Positions 5,700 to 49,448 of a DNA stretch of 64,000 nucleotides are shown here, piece after piece. A model generated the notes under the pieces. It saw only the letters and a program-made list of their open reading frames with translations. It did not search any database and was not told the DNA's origin. The position numbers were made by a program, and so were the translations under genes. Position 1 is the stretch's first letter. The number at the start of each line of letters is the position of its first letter. The DNA is from Candidatus Hadarchaeales archaeon. GTDB taxonomy: Archaea; Hadarchaeota; Hadarchaeia; Hadarchaeales; WYZ-LMO6. The stretch is from NCBI GenBank assembly GCA_038736355.1, contig JAVYML010000002.1, forward strand, positions 1 through 64,000, in the 5' to 3' direction.

Positions 5700-6821
5700 A
5701 TGCCCGCCAACCTTCCCCCAGAGTACTTCAAGGCCGAACAAAGGTACTTGCAGGCCAAGACCCTCGAGGAGAAAATCCAGGCCACCCAGGAGCTCATCAG
5801 GATCGCCCCAAAGCACAAGGGTACTGAAAAGCTCCTCCGGATGCTGAAACAAAGGCTCGCCAAGCTGAGGAGGGAATTGGAGGAAAGGGAGAGGAGGAGG
5901 GGTGGAGGGGGACCCAGCTTTGCCGTGAAGAAAGAGGGATGCGCCCAGGTGGCTCTGGTAGGACTGCCCAATTCTGGTAAATCCACCCTCCTCAGGAAGC
6001 TCACGAATGCTAGACCAGAAGTGGCGGACTATCCCTTCACCACCAGGTTCCCCGTTCCGGGTATGATGGACTACGAGGATGTGCAAGTCCAGCTCGTGGA
6101 GATACCCTCAATCGTGGAAGGGTCCAGCTGGGGTAGGGGACTGGGGGCTCAACCTTTGAGCGCCGCTAGGAACGCGGATGTCATCGCACTCGTCTTGGAC
6201 GCCTCTTCCCATCCCCTCCAACAACTGGAAATCCTGGTGAAGGAACTGGAGGAGAGCGGGGTTAGGTTGAACCGTTCCCCACCTAAGGTCACCATAGAGA
6301 GGAGGGAGGAGGGGGGAATAGTGATCAGGGGAAAGGAATTGATGGAGGGAGGGGAGGAAGAAATCAAGAGGATTTTGAGAGAACACAGGATACATAACGC
6401 CTTCGTGGTGGTGGAGGAAAGGATAACTCCTCAGACCTTCGAGGAGGTGCTGGAGGGATCGGTGGTCTATCGCCCATGCTTCGTTCTCCTCACCAAGACC
6501 GATCTTTGCCCCACACCCTCCCTCCCCATACCCTTCAAGGTAATAGACGCTGGGAAGGACCCCGGGGAGCTCAAGAGGGAAATTTTCCAAAGCCTTGGTC
6601 TCATCAGGGTCTACACCAAAAAACCCAACGAGGAACCCTCCGACAAACCCCTCGTTTTGCCCAAGGGATCCACCCCCATAGATGTGGCGAGGGCCATCCA
6701 CAAGGAACTCGAAAGGGAAATGAGGGCGGTGAGGGTGTGGGGATCCACCCGCTTCCCCGGACAATGGGTGCCCAGAGACTATCCCCTCCAAGACGGGGAT
6801 GTGGTTGAGCTTCACACCTAA
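5700..6821 (+). CDS. DRG/Obg-family GTPase with TGS domain
   Basis: A 373-residue GTPase related to eukaryotic DRG proteins, which associate with ribosomes. It has an N-terminal helical region (residues 1-75), the P-loop GLPNSGKST (about 88-96), TTRFPVPG as switch I, NKxD-like TKTD, and a C-terminal TGS domain (about 300-373) ending LQDGDVVELHT. The G3 motif normally reads DLPG but here is EIPS, a notable change. The ATG begins on the base after the thyX stop, so both are probably one transcript. Confidence 0.9.
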   Translation: MPANLPPEYFKAEQRYLQAKTLEEKIQATQELIRIAPKHKGTEKLLRMLKQRLAKLRRELEERERRRGGGGPSFAVKKEGCAQVALVGLPNSGKSTLLRKLTNARPEVADYPFTTRFPVPGMMDYEDVQVQLVEIPSIVEGSSWGRGLGAQPLSAARNADVIALVLDASSHPLQQLEILVKELEESGVRLNRSPPKVTIERREEGGIVIRGKELMEGGEEEIKRILREHRIHNAFVVVEERITPQTFEEVLEGSVVYRPCFVLLTKTDLCPTPSLPIPFKVIDAGKDPGELKREIFQSLGLIRVYTKKPNEEPSDKPLVLPKGSTPIDVARAIHKELEREMRAVRVWGSTRFPGQWVPRDYPLQDGDVVELHT

Positions 6822-41264: not shown

Positions 41265-42374
41265 CTAGCCCTTGATCTCCTCTTCGTAAATCTCCCCAAC
41301 CAATTCCGCTATGGCTGGGGCTGCCGTAAGACCGGGTGACTCTATGCCTACCAAGTTTATGAAACCGAAAAACCCCCTATCGGCTTCGTGCCTTATGACG
41401 AAGTCCCTGAACCCCTCCCCAGGACCATGCAGTTTGGGTCTCACTCCCGAAAACTCGGGTATGAGCTGGTACTCCTGAATGGAGGGCAGGAACCTCCCTA
41501 TCTCTTTCCTGAATTCAAGCTCCTCCGAAGTCACACCGTATTCCGGCTGTGAAACATAGTAAGCGTTGGGTCCAGCCCTCACGGTTCCCCCCAGGTCGGG
41601 AGTGAGATGGATCCCCAACCCCTCACCTCGGGGAACGGGGTACACGGGCATTCTCACGGGTGGTCTGTTGAACCTGAAATAATCGCCCTTACAGTAGTGG
41701 ATCCTGTAGCCGAGCTCGTCCACCCTCAAACCCACCAGAGAAGCCACTCTGTCCGAGCTGAGGCCGGCACAGTTGACCACGCTGCTGGCTTTTATTTCAA
41801 ATTCCTCCCCCCCGCTGATCCCCCTCAGCTCATACCCATCCACCACCTTCCGAATACCCGTGACCTCCGTCCTGGTGACCAAGATGGCACCTTTCTGAGA
41901 GGCCCTCGCCCGGAAATATTCTAGAAGTGAGTCGGGATCCACTATGCCCGTGGAGGGGGAATAAAGGGCTTCCACAGCCCTTATCCTGGGTTCCATCTCC
42001 CTGATCTCCTTCTCTTCCAGGAGCCTCAGACCCTCCACTCCATTCTCTTCCCCCCACCGCATGAGCCTCTCCAGTTCTCCCATTTCTTCCTCCTCCACCG
42101 CCACGGTAAGTTTTCCCGTCCTCCTGTGCGGAAGCCTGTATCTCTCGCAGATCTGGTAAAGGAGGGAATTGCCCCTCACGCACAGCTTGGCCTTCAGGGA
42201 ACCTGGGGGATAGTGGATGCCCGAATGGATCACCCCGCTGTTGTGGGTGCTCGTTTCCTGCCCGAACCTTTCCCTTCTCTCCAGCAGATATACCCCCTGG
42301 CTCCTCTCGGATAGTTCTGCGGCCACTGCCAGGCCCACTACCCCCCCTCCTATCACCACCGTCTCCACCCTCAT
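41265..42374 (-). CDS. FAD-dependent oxidoreductase of the LhgO / glycerol-3-phosphate dehydrogenase type
   Basis: A 369-residue DAO-fold flavoprotein with the FAD loop VVIGGGVVGLAVAAELSER (residues 6-24), ETSTHNSGVIHSGIHYPPGSLKAKLCVRG, VVNCAGLSSDR and GIESPGLTAAPAIAELV at the end. The HNSGVIHSGIHY motif is characteristic of L-2-hydroxyglutarate oxidase-like enzymes; some archaeal relatives act on glycerol 1/3-phosphate or geranylgeranyl lipids. The exact substrate is uncertain. It converges on glmS with a gap of 33 bases. Confidence 0.88.
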   Translation of the reverse strand: MRVETVVIGGGVVGLAVAAELSERSQGVYLLERRERFGQETSTHNSGVIHSGIHYPPGSLKAKLCVRGNSLLYQICERYRLPHRRTGKLTVAVEEEEMGELERLMRWGEENGVEGLRLLEEKEIREMEPRIRAVEALYSPSTGIVDPDSLLEYFRARASQKGAILVTRTEVTGIRKVVDGYELRGISGGEEFEIKASSVVNCAGLSSDRVASLVGLRVDELGYRIHYCKGDYFRFNRPPVRMPVYPVPRGEGLGIHLTPDLGGTVRAGPNAYYVSQPEYGVTSEELEFRKEIGRFLPSIQEYQLIPEFSGVRPKLHGPGEGFRDFVIRHEADRGFFGFINLVGIESPGLTAAPAIAELVGEIYEEEIKG

Positions 42375-42414
42375 CCCCCCACCTCCGCCTCACCGAACAT
42401 CGCAGTTTGTCTAA

Positions 42415-42795
42415 AAAGATATAGAGCACGTATCTAGCCTTTGGCCCGTTAGTTCAAAGTACGCCCAAGTGGCTAAAGTGAGTGGCGCTGAACTTGAAGA
42501 AAGGTTGGAGGCCCAAATGGAATGCTGGTGTGCCAAAGAGTAACTCGCTCAAATTGCCAAAAAGCGCTCGCAAGAACGTGATAAAATAATCGCGGAAATG
42601 AAAGCACCGTGTCTGAAACCAACGCGTCATCTCCAGCGGAGATATGACACTGCAATACCGGCGTACGAACAAACGGTTTCCCGGCAGAAAGGATACCCCT
42701 GGGACAACAAGGCTGTGCCTCACCGCCAGGGCTTGCTCGCTAACTCTCAAGCTAGCAGGTGGGACTGCTTTGCGACCCTTCTAAGGATGTCATGA
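42415..42795 (+). pseudogene. Unexplained segment with a stop-interrupted open frame
   Basis: The 507-base gap between the LhgO-type gene and mscS has a composition unlike its neighbours (fewer GG/CC runs, more CAA, CGC and GCG). One rightward frame is open from 42415 to TGA at 42793-42795 except for a TAA at 42541-42543; it reads KVSGAELEERLEAQ before the stop and LAQIAKKRSQERDKIIAEM after it, resembling a helical protein. There is no good start. A GTCAT..CTCC/GGAG..ATGAC hairpin lies near 42625-42650. It may be a decayed gene or inserted fragment; I cannot name a family. Confidence 0.35.
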
Positions 42796-42881
42796 AGGAG
42801 TGAGTCCCTTCCCTGAGAACTAGCCTACAGAAACTGGCCTCCGTCACCGTTTGGGGAATAGGGCTGATCCTCGCCATTGGG

Positions 42882-43433
42882 ATGCTGGGACTCAACACGA
42901 ACCTGCTTCTCCTGCTGGTGGGCCTGCTGGGATTGGGGATGCTCCTCGCCATGAGGGAGGTTCTAGAGAACGTGGGGGCCAAGTACTTCACCGACATCTA
43001 CGTTCCCTTCAAGGTGGGAGACATCATCAGGGTGGGGGAGTACTCAGGAAAGGTCATTGAGATAAACCCAGTGGCCACCGTTCTCCTCACGAAGGACGAG
43101 CACCTGATCTCCATCCCAAATTCCTCCTTCCTGAAGGAGAAGATGGTCAACCTGACCCCCCATGTCTGGAAGGAGATACTGATACCCATCACCATAAGCT
43201 CCTCTCTAAGCCTCCCCGAGTTCGAAAGCGAGGTTCTCAGGGCTTGCAACAGGCTCAGGCAGTACCTAGACGAGCGCTTCCCCCCCATCCTCACGGTGAG
43301 GAGGAGAAACACCAAGTACGTGAACCTCTTCCTCACCCTGATGGTGAAGGAGCCCTCCAAGAAGGGAGAAATCGTGGAAACGCTTAACCGCACGATTTCG
43401 GAGATAGAGGATAAGCTGAGGAAGAGGAGATAA
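42882..43433 (+). CDS. MscS-like mechanosensitive channel, N-terminally truncated
   Basis: A protein of 183 residues from the first ATG, or up to 210 codons if read from the preceding stop at 42801-42803. It keeps the pore-lining third helix (about residues 1-35, GLLGLGMLLAMREVLENVGAKYF), the MscS beta domain (PFKVGDIIRVGEYSGKVIEINPVATVL...ISIPNSSFLKEKMVNLT) and part of the alpha-beta C-terminal domain. The first one or two transmembrane helices found in the family are absent and no ribosome-binding site precedes the ATG, so it is probably a truncated gene. Confidence 0.75.
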   Translation: MLGLNTNLLLLLVGLLGLGMLLAMREVLENVGAKYFTDIYVPFKVGDIIRVGEYSGKVIEINPVATVLLTKDEHLISIPNSSFLKEKMVNLTPHVWKEILIPITISSSLSLPEFESEVLRACNRLRQYLDERFPPILTVRRRNTKYVNLFLTLMVKEPSKKGEIVETLNRTISEIEDKLRKRR

Positions 43434-43525: not shown

Positions 43526-44521
43526 ATGATGAAGGGTCTCATCCTAGCCGGTGGTTTCGCCACCCGTCTCGGCGCCATAGGGGAGGTCTTTCCCAAAGCC
43601 ATGCTGATGGTGGAAGGAAACACCCTTGTGGGACATCTCCTCTCCAAGCTCGAAAGACTGGGAATAGAAACCGTGATCACCACCAACAGGCGTTTCGCGG
43701 AATTCTTCCGTTCCTATCCCCATGTCTTGGTGGAGGAAGCCACGAGGGAAGAGGAGAAGCTGGGGGCCGTGACGGCCATAGCCAACGCCATAAGAAAGGA
43801 AGAGATCAGGGAGGATTTGTTGGTGGTGTGTGCCGACAACTATTTCTCCTCCGACCTGAGGGGTTTCGTTTCTTCTTACCAGGGCGACCCCACGGTGGGG
43901 GTTTACTACGCTGGAGGGGATCCGGGAATGCGCCTGCAGGAGATGGCCACGGTGAAGTTTTGTGGAAGTGAATCCTACCCCCCTCCCACCCAAAGCTTCT
44001 GTCTGGAGGACTTCAAGGAAAAGGTGGATCCTCCCCTCAGCCCCTACGTGAGCACCGGCCTCTACCTCTTTCCCCCCAAGATTTTCCCCATCCTGCTGGA
44101 ATATTCTGCCGAGAAGAAAAGGGATGCTCCCGGATTCTTCATCCAGCACCTGATGGAGAGGGGAATCACGGTGAGGGGATACTTGCTCGGAGGGGAATGG
44201 TTCGATGCCTCCTACCAAAACTATCTCCTGATGTTCAAAGATTCAAAACTGGTGAGGAGGGATGAGGACCTCATCCAGTTCAGGAGGGAAAGCGGAGGAA
44301 TGGTGATGCTCCTTTCCTTCCTCAGGAAGGGAGGAATGTATTACGTTTCCAAGGGGGAGAGACTCCTCTTCTTCATAGAGGGAGGGGTGGAGATGAAGAT
44401 GGGGATGAAGAGGATGAGGGTGAGGGGGAGGGAGGTGGTGGAAATCCCTCCAGGGGAAGAAGTGAGTCTACTCAATCCCTCCCATCCCTACTCGATCTTC
44501 CTATCCCTCAAATGGGAGTAG
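43526..44521 (+). CDS. Sugar-phosphate nucleotidyltransferase with C-terminal beta domain
   Basis: A 331-residue protein. Residues 1-240 are a nucleotidyltransferase: GLILAGGFATRLGAIGEVFPKAMLMVEG (NTP loop), VCADNYF (metal-binding Asp) and GGEWFDASYQNYLLM near the end. Residues 245-331 look like a cupin-like beta domain (GGMYYVSKGERLLFFIEGGVEM...VVEIPPGEEVSLLNPSHPY). It probably activates a hexose 1-phosphate for glycan synthesis; the appended domain may sense or modify the sugar. The start may be either of two tandem ATGs. Confidence 0.88.
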   Translation: MMKGLILAGGFATRLGAIGEVFPKAMLMVEGNTLVGHLLSKLERLGIETVITTNRRFAEFFRSYPHVLVEEATREEEKLGAVTAIANAIRKEEIREDLLVVCADNYFSSDLRGFVSSYQGDPTVGVYYAGGDPGMRLQEMATVKFCGSESYPPPTQSFCLEDFKEKVDPPLSPYVSTGLYLFPPKIFPILLEYSAEKKRDAPGFFIQHLMERGITVRGYLLGGEWFDASYQNYLLMFKDSKLVRRDEDLIQFRRESGGMVMLLSFLRKGGMYYVSKGERLLFFIEGGVEMKMGMKRMRVRGREVVEIPPGEEVSLLNPSHPYSIFLSLKWE

Positions 44522-45946: not shown

Positions 45947-46984
45947 ATGGGAAGAGGAAAAGGTGAGCGTTTGCCCTGCATCTTGGTCTGCGGTGGCCAA
46001 TGGGGAGACGAGGGGAAGGGAAAGATCGTCGCCTATCTCTCCCTCAAGTACAAACCCCACATAGTGGTCAGAGCGGGGGTGGGCCCGAACGCAGGACACA
46101 CGGTTTATTTTGCTGGGAAAAGGTTTGGCCTCCGACAAGTTCCCTGCGGTTTCGTTTACGAAGGAGCCAGGCTCCTGATAGGTCCGGGAGTCCTGGTGAA
46201 TCCGGAAGTCCTCCTCAAGGAAATGGAAGAAACGGGAGTGAAGGGAAGACTGGGAGTCGACGGGGGATGTGCCATCATAGAACCCAAACACATAGAAAGG
46301 GACAGGAGCTCCGAACATCTGAGCAAGAAAATTGGGACCACGGGAAGCGGATGTGGACCGGCGAACGTCGACAGGGTGAACAGGGTGGCCAAACTGGCCA
46401 GGGAAGTGGAAGAGCTGAAGCCTTTCCTAACCGACGTTCCCCTGGAACTAAACGAGGCCCTGAACCAGGGAAAAAAGGTACTCGTGGAAGGGAGTCAGGG
46501 TTTCGGACTTTCCCTCATCCACGGCACCTATCCTTACGTCACCAGCAAGGACACCTGTGCGGGAACGATGCTGGCCGATGTGGGAATAGGACCAACCAAA
46601 GTCTCGGAGGTGCTCCTGGTCTTCAAAGCCTATGCCACAAGGGTGGGTGAGGGAACCTTCCCCACCGAGATACCGGCGGAAGAGGCTGAAAGGCTGGGGT
46701 GGGTGGAATACGGTACCGTCACGGGAAGGAGGAGGAGGGTGGGACATTTTGACTTCGAAATGGCGAGGAGGGCAGCCCTCATCAACGGGGCCACGCAGAT
46801 AGCCATCACCTGTCTGGACAAAGTCTTCAAGGAATGTGCTGGGGCCAGAAGGGTGGAGGAGCTGAGCGAGAGGGCCAAGGAATTCGTGAGAAAGGTGGAA
46901 GAAGCCACGGGAACCCCCGTCACCCTCCTCTCGACGGGAGAGGAAATGGAAAACACGATAGACCTGAGCAGGGGCAGACTTTGA
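45947..46984 (+). CDS. purA: Adenylosuccinate synthetase PurA
   Basis: Converts IMP and aspartate to adenylosuccinate using GTP. The 345-residue protein matches the shorter archaeal form, with [18 protein letters not shown] (P-loop with catalytic Asp), [57 protein letters not shown] and [12 protein letters not shown]. The next gene overlaps its TGA by four bases. Confidence 0.96.
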
Positions 46985-47612: not shown

Positions 47613-49448
47613 ATGAAAAAAATCCTTTCCGCAGTGGCGATATCGATCGTGGTCCTTCTCTCCACCGTTCTGTTCTTCCACCTGGGCCAAAAACCCTCCG
47701 AGGAATCCCCCTACCTTTTTACTAGGGACTGGATTGGAAAGGGAAACCTCTGGGTATTCGACCAGCCACCCTTAGCCTACCTGAGGGAGCTAGGTGCCAC
47801 GGGGACGGCCTTTTCAGTTTACTACCACGGCTTCAACGAGTACGATTGGGATTACGTGAAAACCCTGCATCGACATGGCTTCAAGGTCACCGCCAACCTC
47901 CCGCTGGGACAGGGAACTACCACCGAAAACATGCAACTCAGGGAAGAAGCGGCCAAGAGGGACATCCACAACAATCCCATCTTCCTGCTGGGGCTGGAAG
48001 GCCTCTACAACATGTGTGGCAATCACCCGCTCTGGCGCGAGTTCCTCATGAACAGAATAGCCGAGCAGGCACGGGGGGGTGTGGACGGAATACTCCTCGA
48101 CGAACCGGGGGATCTGGGGGACTGTTTTTGCGACCACTGCATGCAAGCCTTCAACCATTATCTGGCCGACCATTACTCCCCAGGCGAGCTGCAGCATCTC
48201 TTCGGAATAGCGGATCTTTCCTCTTTCAACTACAGGGAATATCTTCTGGCACACGGGGGTTCCCAGTGGTGGGACGACCCCAACCCGCAGTTGCAGCTCG
48301 CGTACCTCCAGTTCAGGTACTCCGAAAGGGTAAAGTTCATCGGAGAACTCATCCAGCACGCCAGGCAAGCAGCGGGATGGGAGCTTCCTGTAACGGCAAA
48401 CGTGTACGGGCTGGAACCGAACCACCAGATCTTCGTTCCCCTCCTCGATTTCGTGATTTTCGAGATGCCCTTAACCCTTGAGGTCCATCCCAACATGCCC
48501 CATCTCAGACCCAGACCAGGCAAACATTTCACCACCTACCTCCTCGCCGAGGCCCTCGACCCGGAGAAGCCCTTCTCCGCCTTTCCCGATGTCTTCGAAC
48601 TGCTCCACCTCTCGGAGGATGAGTGGTGGTTATGGAGACAATGGCTGGCGGAGGCGAGGGCCTTAGGGGCCTCCTTCATGATACCATACCAAGCCTACGT
48701 CTACGGAGGGGAGCGATCCTATACCCTCCCCGCCGACCGGATTTCCCCCTACATCAGATTCTTCGCCGAGCATCCCCAGTATTACGAGAACTTGGAAAGG
48801 ATAGCCAAGATAGCATTACTCTACGACCTGCATTCCACCCTGATCAACCGGTACACCTGGAGGACCTATCTAGCCTGGGAGAGCTTCGAGAACTTGGGAC
48901 TGATGTTGCAGGAAGCTCATCTTCCCTTCGAAGTGGTGTACAGGGGAGACGGAAAGTTCGTAAAGAAGCCCTTGACACTGGAGGGACTAGAAAAGTACAG
49001 CGTAGTGGTGGTACCGAGGTACTACGACCTCGACCAAGATACCCTCAACCTCCTGCAGCAGTACTCGGCTGGGGGAGGCCTCGTTTTGAAGTGCGACGAT
49101 CTGGCCGACGACTCCCAACTCATACCAACCCTGAAGGGGTTGAAAATCGATTTCGGACTGGAAACGAACGCCTCCCAAGACCTGTCTTTGGTGGCCTACC
49201 GGGGAAAGGACTCTCTCTTGGTCCACCTGATAAACTATAGATACAACAGGCAGGCACTCGACTTCTCAGACCTAACGAACATACGGGTGACCTTAACCCT
49301 TCCCGAGGGTCTTACCCTGGAGGGAAAAACGCTGAAGATCCTCAGTCCGGACGAGGGGGAGCTCACACTGGATTTCATACTGGAGGGGGGAAGGGTCACT
49401 TTCACCCTCCCCCGTCTCCACTGTTATTCCGTTGCCTCTTTCGAGTGA
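47613..49448 (+). CDS. Secreted glycosidase-like TIM-barrel protein
   Basis: A 611-residue protein with an N-terminal membrane anchor or signal (residues 4-24). The body resembles a beta-galactosidase-type TIM barrel (about 60-360) with the strand-end acids in GVDGILLDEPGDLGDCFCDHCMQAFNHYL, a motif seen in GH42-like or uncharacterised glycoside hydrolases where two Cys pairs follow the acid. A Rossmann-like trimerisation-type domain (about 400-540) and a beta-sandwich end follow. The enzyme class is uncertain. A TTTAAAAG element lies about 30 bases ahead of the ATG. Confidence 0.7.
   Translation: MKKILSAVAISIVVLLSTVLFFHLGQKPSEESPYLFTRDWIGKGNLWVFDQPPLAYLRELGATGTAFSVYYHGFNEYDWDYVKTLHRHGFKVTANLPLGQGTTTENMQLREEAAKRDIHNNPIFLLGLEGLYNMCGNHPLWREFLMNRIAEQARGGVDGILLDEPGDLGDCFCDHCMQAFNHYLADHYSPGELQHLFGIADLSSFNYREYLLAHGGSQWWDDPNPQLQLAYLQFRYSERVKFIGELIQHARQAAGWELPVTANVYGLEPNHQIFVPLLDFVIFEMPLTLEVHPNMPHLRPRPGKHFTTYLLAEALDPEKPFSAFPDVFELLHLSEDEWWLWRQWLAEARALGASFMIPYQAYVYGGERSYTLPADRISPYIRFFAEHPQYYENLERIAKIALLYDLHSTLINRYTWRTYLAWESFENLGLMLQEAHLPFEVVYRGDGKFVKKPLTLEGLEKYSVVVVPRYYDLDQDTLNLLQQYSAGGGLVLKCDDLADDSQLIPTLKGLKIDFGLETNASQDLSLVAYRGKDSLLVHLINYRYNRQALDFSDLTNIRVTLTLPEGLTLEGKTLKILSPDEGELTLDFILEGGRVTFTLPRLHCYSVASFE

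Follow-up and report, generated by a model that had tools for sequence, protein, structure and literature searches.

The locus described here lies between two intact genes in a 64-kb stretch of archaeal DNA, the whole of which is referred to as the window. Its features are listed in Table 1. The left-flanking gene, of the L-2-hydroxyglutarate oxidase type (LhgO-like), also matched NF008726 (E=7e-71, yet under the cutoff of that model), and its product shares 78% amino acid identity with the counterpart in the same position in G002, a genome of the same genus. The right-flanking gene (hereafter NTP-transferase) is conserved in G001, G002 and G003, with 82-88% identity within the genus. Elsewhere in the window, a GH42-like protein of 611 aa (47613-49448) is intact, and only shorter homologous fragments of it were found in G001, so that its gene may be a further case of decay within the genus. 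Rfam detected a minus-strand tRNA (1413-1523) that ARAGORN did not list under the bacterial setting; because of its length of 111 bases, it probably contains an intron.

Table 1. Features at and around the mscS locus (positions within the window)
Feature	Position	Strand	Basis or remark
glmS	to 41231		outer left flank
FAD-dependent oxidoreductase (DAO; L-2-hydroxyglutarate oxidase-like), intact	41265..42374	-	PF01266, E=7e-68; left flank
Probable leftover promoter region of the LhgO-like gene (tentative)	42375..42424	.	AAAAAGATAT common to the window and G002
Filler, about 345-360 bp, lying where otsB, GT and the beginning of mscS would be	42425..42785	.	no homolog found; GpC outlier
mscS sequence 5' of the open frame, ending in TGA	42786..42803	+	12/18 ungapped identity; protein alignment
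5'-truncated mscS remnant	42804..43433	+	TM2 (without start codon), TM3, beta domain, C-terminal domain
Longest standard-start ORF in the mscS remnant (183 aa)	42882..43433	+	beginning at TM3
Sugar-phosphate nucleotidyltransferase, intact	43526..44521	+	PF00483; right flank
purA	45947-46984		outer right flank

Synteny, gene loss and truncation of mscS

The mscS remnant was identified by its match to PF00924 (MscS beta domain; E=1.2e-12, 48 bits, above the cutoff of 20.2). When it was compared with the MscS family, including E. coli MscS, its TM3, beta domain and C-terminal region were present and alignable. In contrast to these channels, TM1 is gone, TM2 is without a start codon, and a conserved Trp is replaced by a nonsense codon. 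As described in the initial annotation, the frame opens directly after a TGA (42801-42803) and has no start until TM3, the earliest ATG, GTG or TTG being ATG 42882 at the TM2/TM3 boundary in the hydropathy profile. Based on hydropathy and alignment, TM2 is located between this TGA and ATG 42882, and by hydropathy the standard start gives TM3 and the cytoplasmic part only; a complete TM1-TM3 set with a start codon is not present in the window mscS.

The same locus is intact in G002, where a 6.4-kb contig (C196, hereafter L032) carries, in this order, glmS, the LhgO-like gene (minus strand), otsB (trehalose-6-phosphate phosphatase), a GT4 glycosyltransferase gene (GT), mscS, the NTP-transferase gene and purA. 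The otsB and GT genes overlap by 4 bp, as do GT and mscS, and the mscS gene (L032 3748-4491) encodes 247 aa, indicating that the window copy is truncated. OtsB of G002 (262 aa, stand-alone) is a trehalose-phosphatase by TIGR00685 (172 bits, cutoff 68), and the GT matched the OtsA model weakly (E=4e-10, 39 bits against a cutoff of 565), its predicted product being either trehalose-6-phosphate or another glucosyl solute. The flanks of the window and G002 agree in gene order and in nucleotide sequence (77-79% identity) right up to the gap on both sides. Relative to G002, the window locus is without otsB, GT and the first 32 or so codons of mscS. In the genome to which the window belongs (G000; 96% complete, 4 contigs), no otsB homolog was detected, and the GT ortholog is absent, the best matches (E=1e-18, compared with 4e-303 in G002 itself) being distant paralogs. 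The sister genome thus supports an insertion or deletion that truncated the channel, as the initial annotation had proposed, and the event was larger in that otsB and GT were lost as well. As for the channel itself, 5' truncation is borne out, but the lost coding sequence amounts to only about 32 of 247 codons rather than the 5' half. As a separate observation, G002 carries just upstream of otsB a second copy of the first 21 bases of the NTP-transferase gene, together with an imperfect copy of the promoter of that gene (L032 1533-1618 and 4523-4607). The two copies form a direct repeat that flanks otsB-GT-mscS and may be the footprint of an operon insertion or of promoter capture.

The right junction was located by alignment with the G002 gene. 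The segment 42786-42803 matches L032 3844-3861 at 12 of 18 bases, ungapped and in frame (empirical P of about 6e-4), so that mscS homology runs through the TGA (GATGTCATGAAGGAGTGA in the window, GATCTCTTCAGGGAATGG in G002), and the protein sequences correspond across it (DVMKE*VPSL in the window, DLFREWAPSL in G002). Upstream of 42786, the identity drops to 7/18. The TGA, taken at first as the edge of homology, thus lies inside the gene, and the alignment places the right junction at about 42768-42785, not at 42801. This stop codon takes the position of Trp38 in the G002 protein, a residue that is Trp in G013 as well. Recoding of this TGA as Trp, suggested by its position at a Trp codon, was considered and rejected, because several genes in the window end normally in TGA and readthrough would reach only unrelated DNA. 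The left junction falls somewhere between 42376 and about 42425. Within this interval, a 10-base match (AAAAAGATAT, window 42413-42422, L032 1584-1593), weak in that 16 of 200 shuffles were equally good, tentatively suggests that the promoter of the LhgO-like gene was kept in the window.

Downstream of the TGA, the remnant is 78% identical in amino acid sequence to the intact mscS of G002, without indels or further stops along 209 codons. Its dN/dS against G002 is about 0.23 (0.08-0.13 for the neighbouring genes), and the lineage-specific residue changes in this comparison numbered 15 versus 11. The dN/dS fits a mild relaxation, matching a recent truncation; residual selection on a shorter protein fits too. 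An intact ortholog stands at the same place in the sister genome, and the window copy has no start codon, no TM1, no translatable TM2 and, in place of a conserved Trp, a nonsense codon. It is therefore most likely a young pseudogene. The function of this channel has presumably been lost in the window's organism, in which a second, full-length MscS paralog of 364 aa is encoded elsewhere (G000:C3:170595).

In G001, a second congener, only about 430 bp separate glmS from the NTP-transferase gene, and the LhgO-like gene, otsB and this GT are absent. About 240 bp of this gap can be aligned with the 3' half of mscS, though with numerous indels and stop codons, and this copy reads clearly as a pseudogene, more decayed than that of the window. 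The operon is thus decayed in two of the three sampled congeners. The informative sites for the branching order of G000, G001 and G002 split 13:12:6, which is compatible with one loss or with two independent losses. Between glmS and the mscS remnant of G001 (L058, G001:C8:14000-26000, positions 6652-6790), there is also a stretch of about 135 bp of G+C-rich DNA, unlike the window filler and without Pfam match.

Composition and origin of the filler DNA

No gene-like ORF was found within 42375-42785. The codon log-odds of the filler under host usage were negative in all six frames, and a coding role was rejected on this ground. The stop-interrupted, helix-like frame previously noted on the plus strand (TAA at 42541-42543) turned out to be at chance level (p=0.11 for the longest stop-free run, p=0.46 for the minimum stop count). 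The distinct base composition upstream of mscS, also noted before, was supported by the dinucleotide signature, the shift in G+C being mild. The G+C content of 42400-42785 is 0.50-0.52 and thus mildly below the window average of 0.56 (9th-19th percentile). Its GpC odds ratio is 1.33, whereas the host averages 0.61; this is the top value among 5,312 host windows (about 0.32 Mb, taken from the 64-kb window itself and from thirteen host stretches of 20 kb), and its overall dinucleotide signature distance is in the top 0.4%. The next-highest GpC windows include an ordinary host gene, alba, and the bias by itself is therefore no proof of foreign origin.

A homolog of the filler was detected neither in its own genome, 60 relatives and 28 genomes of the phylum, nor among phage and plasmid records, IMG/VR and GTDB genomes. 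Two weak Synechococcus matches were antisense readings of a glycosyltransferase gene and were dismissed as due to chance. No transposase or viral match was obtained from PHROGs, Pfam, phages, plasmids and IMG/VR, and inverted repeats were not found in 42300-43000; the filler thus shows neither a database match nor the terminal repeats of a mobile element or virus. A search for structured RNA likewise gave no Rfam match and a fold z of -0.7. The composition fits the view that this DNA is foreign, but the searches of relatives, phage and plasmid records, IMG/VR and GTDB gave no positive match. On its composition, an origin of the filler from elsewhere is plausible.

Proposed history of the locus and alternative readings

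We propose that the region 42375-43433 is a scar left when an osmolyte operon of the trehalose type was lost, with the 3' part of mscS remaining (probability of about 0.85). The ancestral locus would have carried overlapping otsB, GT4 and mscS genes between the LhgO-like gene and the NTP-transferase gene. In the lineage of the window, about 2.2 kb holding otsB, GT and the first 32 or so codons of mscS would have been deleted or replaced. The gap would have been left with about 345-360 bp of DNA that is unrelated and was probably acquired, and the mscS fragment with its nonsense codon at the conserved Trp would have become a young pseudogene. The process is ordinary gene decay. It resembles the pseudogenes produced by operon deletion in small archaeal genomes in its 5' truncation, nonsense codon, partner loss and further decay in a congener, but differs from a clean deletion in that the gap holds about 350 bp of compositionally odd, unrelated DNA.

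It is unlikely that the remnant encodes a working short protein composed of TM3 and the cytoplasmic vestibule, either of 183 aa from ATG 42882 or of about 205 aa if translation began at a non-standard codon such as CTG 42813; such a protein might assemble with the second full-length MscS. The uninterrupted 209 codons, the dN/dS value, a GGAG (42797-42800) upstream of CTG 42813 and the presence of the 364-aa paralog are in agreement with such a protein, as is the msc protein of Thermoproteus tenax (see below), itself merely 197 aa. The T. tenax protein, however, covers the transmembrane region, the opposite part of the channel, while the remnant is missing TM1 and a translatable TM2. Both TM1 and TM2 are required for tension sensing in known MscS. 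In addition, the nonsense codon comes just after the junction, the promoter and the operon are gone, and the G001 copy is a pseudogene. A combined form is very unlikely. In it, the filler would be part of an archaeal mobile element or virus not yet described, which eliminated the trehalose operon on inserting, and half of MscS would have been kept as a short vestibule protein.

The filler might also consist of otsB, GT and mscS sequences decayed past recognition instead of replaced DNA. The synonymous divergence within the genus is high (dS about 0.6-1.2), which makes neutral DNA hard to recognise, and decay in place is seen in G001. We consider this improbable, since 42375-42785 matches the G002 operon only at the level of dinucleotide shuffles (z=0.9 and -0.3), whereas the G001 remnant gave z=13.9; moreover, its GpC bias sets the filler apart from host DNA, and the adjoining mscS remnant is still 78% identical. 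An assembly chimera, with both the 400 bp and the deletion as artefacts, would agree with a filler that is unique and has no relative found, but it is highly improbable: the operon genes are missing genome-wide, G001 is decayed at the same site, the window lies within a 440-kb contig, and mscS homology through a stop codon is not something that a chimera would create. A further reading places a non-coding RNA or a regulatory element, either of them functional, in front of a compact mscS. The 400 bp without coding signal would suit it, but the Rfam and folding results argue against it, and the mscS genes of sister genomes are longer with an operon upstream. A sister genome sharing a short MscS with conserved upstream DNA was not found, as G002 mscS is long and the upstream DNA occurs in no relative searched; this last reading is hardly credible.

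Relation to the trehalose operon of T. tenax

The characterised msc-gt-tpsp operon of T. tenax ties these kinds of gene to trehalose; its msc encodes 197 aa, and its structure was called unique to Thermoproteales (PMC3634074). The overlapping genes of the G002 operon likewise encode a GT4 glycosyltransferase, a trehalose-6-phosphate phosphatase and an MscS-type channel. In contrast to T. tenax, its gene order is otsB-GT-mscS, its phosphatase is stand-alone without a fused GT20 synthase, and its channel of 247 aa includes the beta domain, the match of T. tenax msc being to the MscS transmembrane region. The window has this operon only in destroyed form. By analogy with T. tenax, we infer that the parent operon made and vented trehalose.

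The same GT-mscS pair was found in G013 and G047, and related GT-mscS or GT/MscS/otsB neighbourhoods in G013, G047, G003 and others. Other arrangements, in which otsB lies close to a related GT4 gene and to a gene for a longer MscS (about 350 aa), occur across the order (G003:C15, G010:C8, G011:C61, G013:C46 and G015:C22). Clusters of otsB, GT4 and mscS like the T. tenax trehalose operon therefore exist well outside Thermoproteales and are thus more widespread. Their occurrence there supports the view that the genes for making trehalose and for a pressure-release channel are passed on, and disappear, as one unit. The three congeners, with the locus intact, half-deleted and nearly erased, represent stages in the stepwise loss of a compatible-solute operon from a small archaeal genome.
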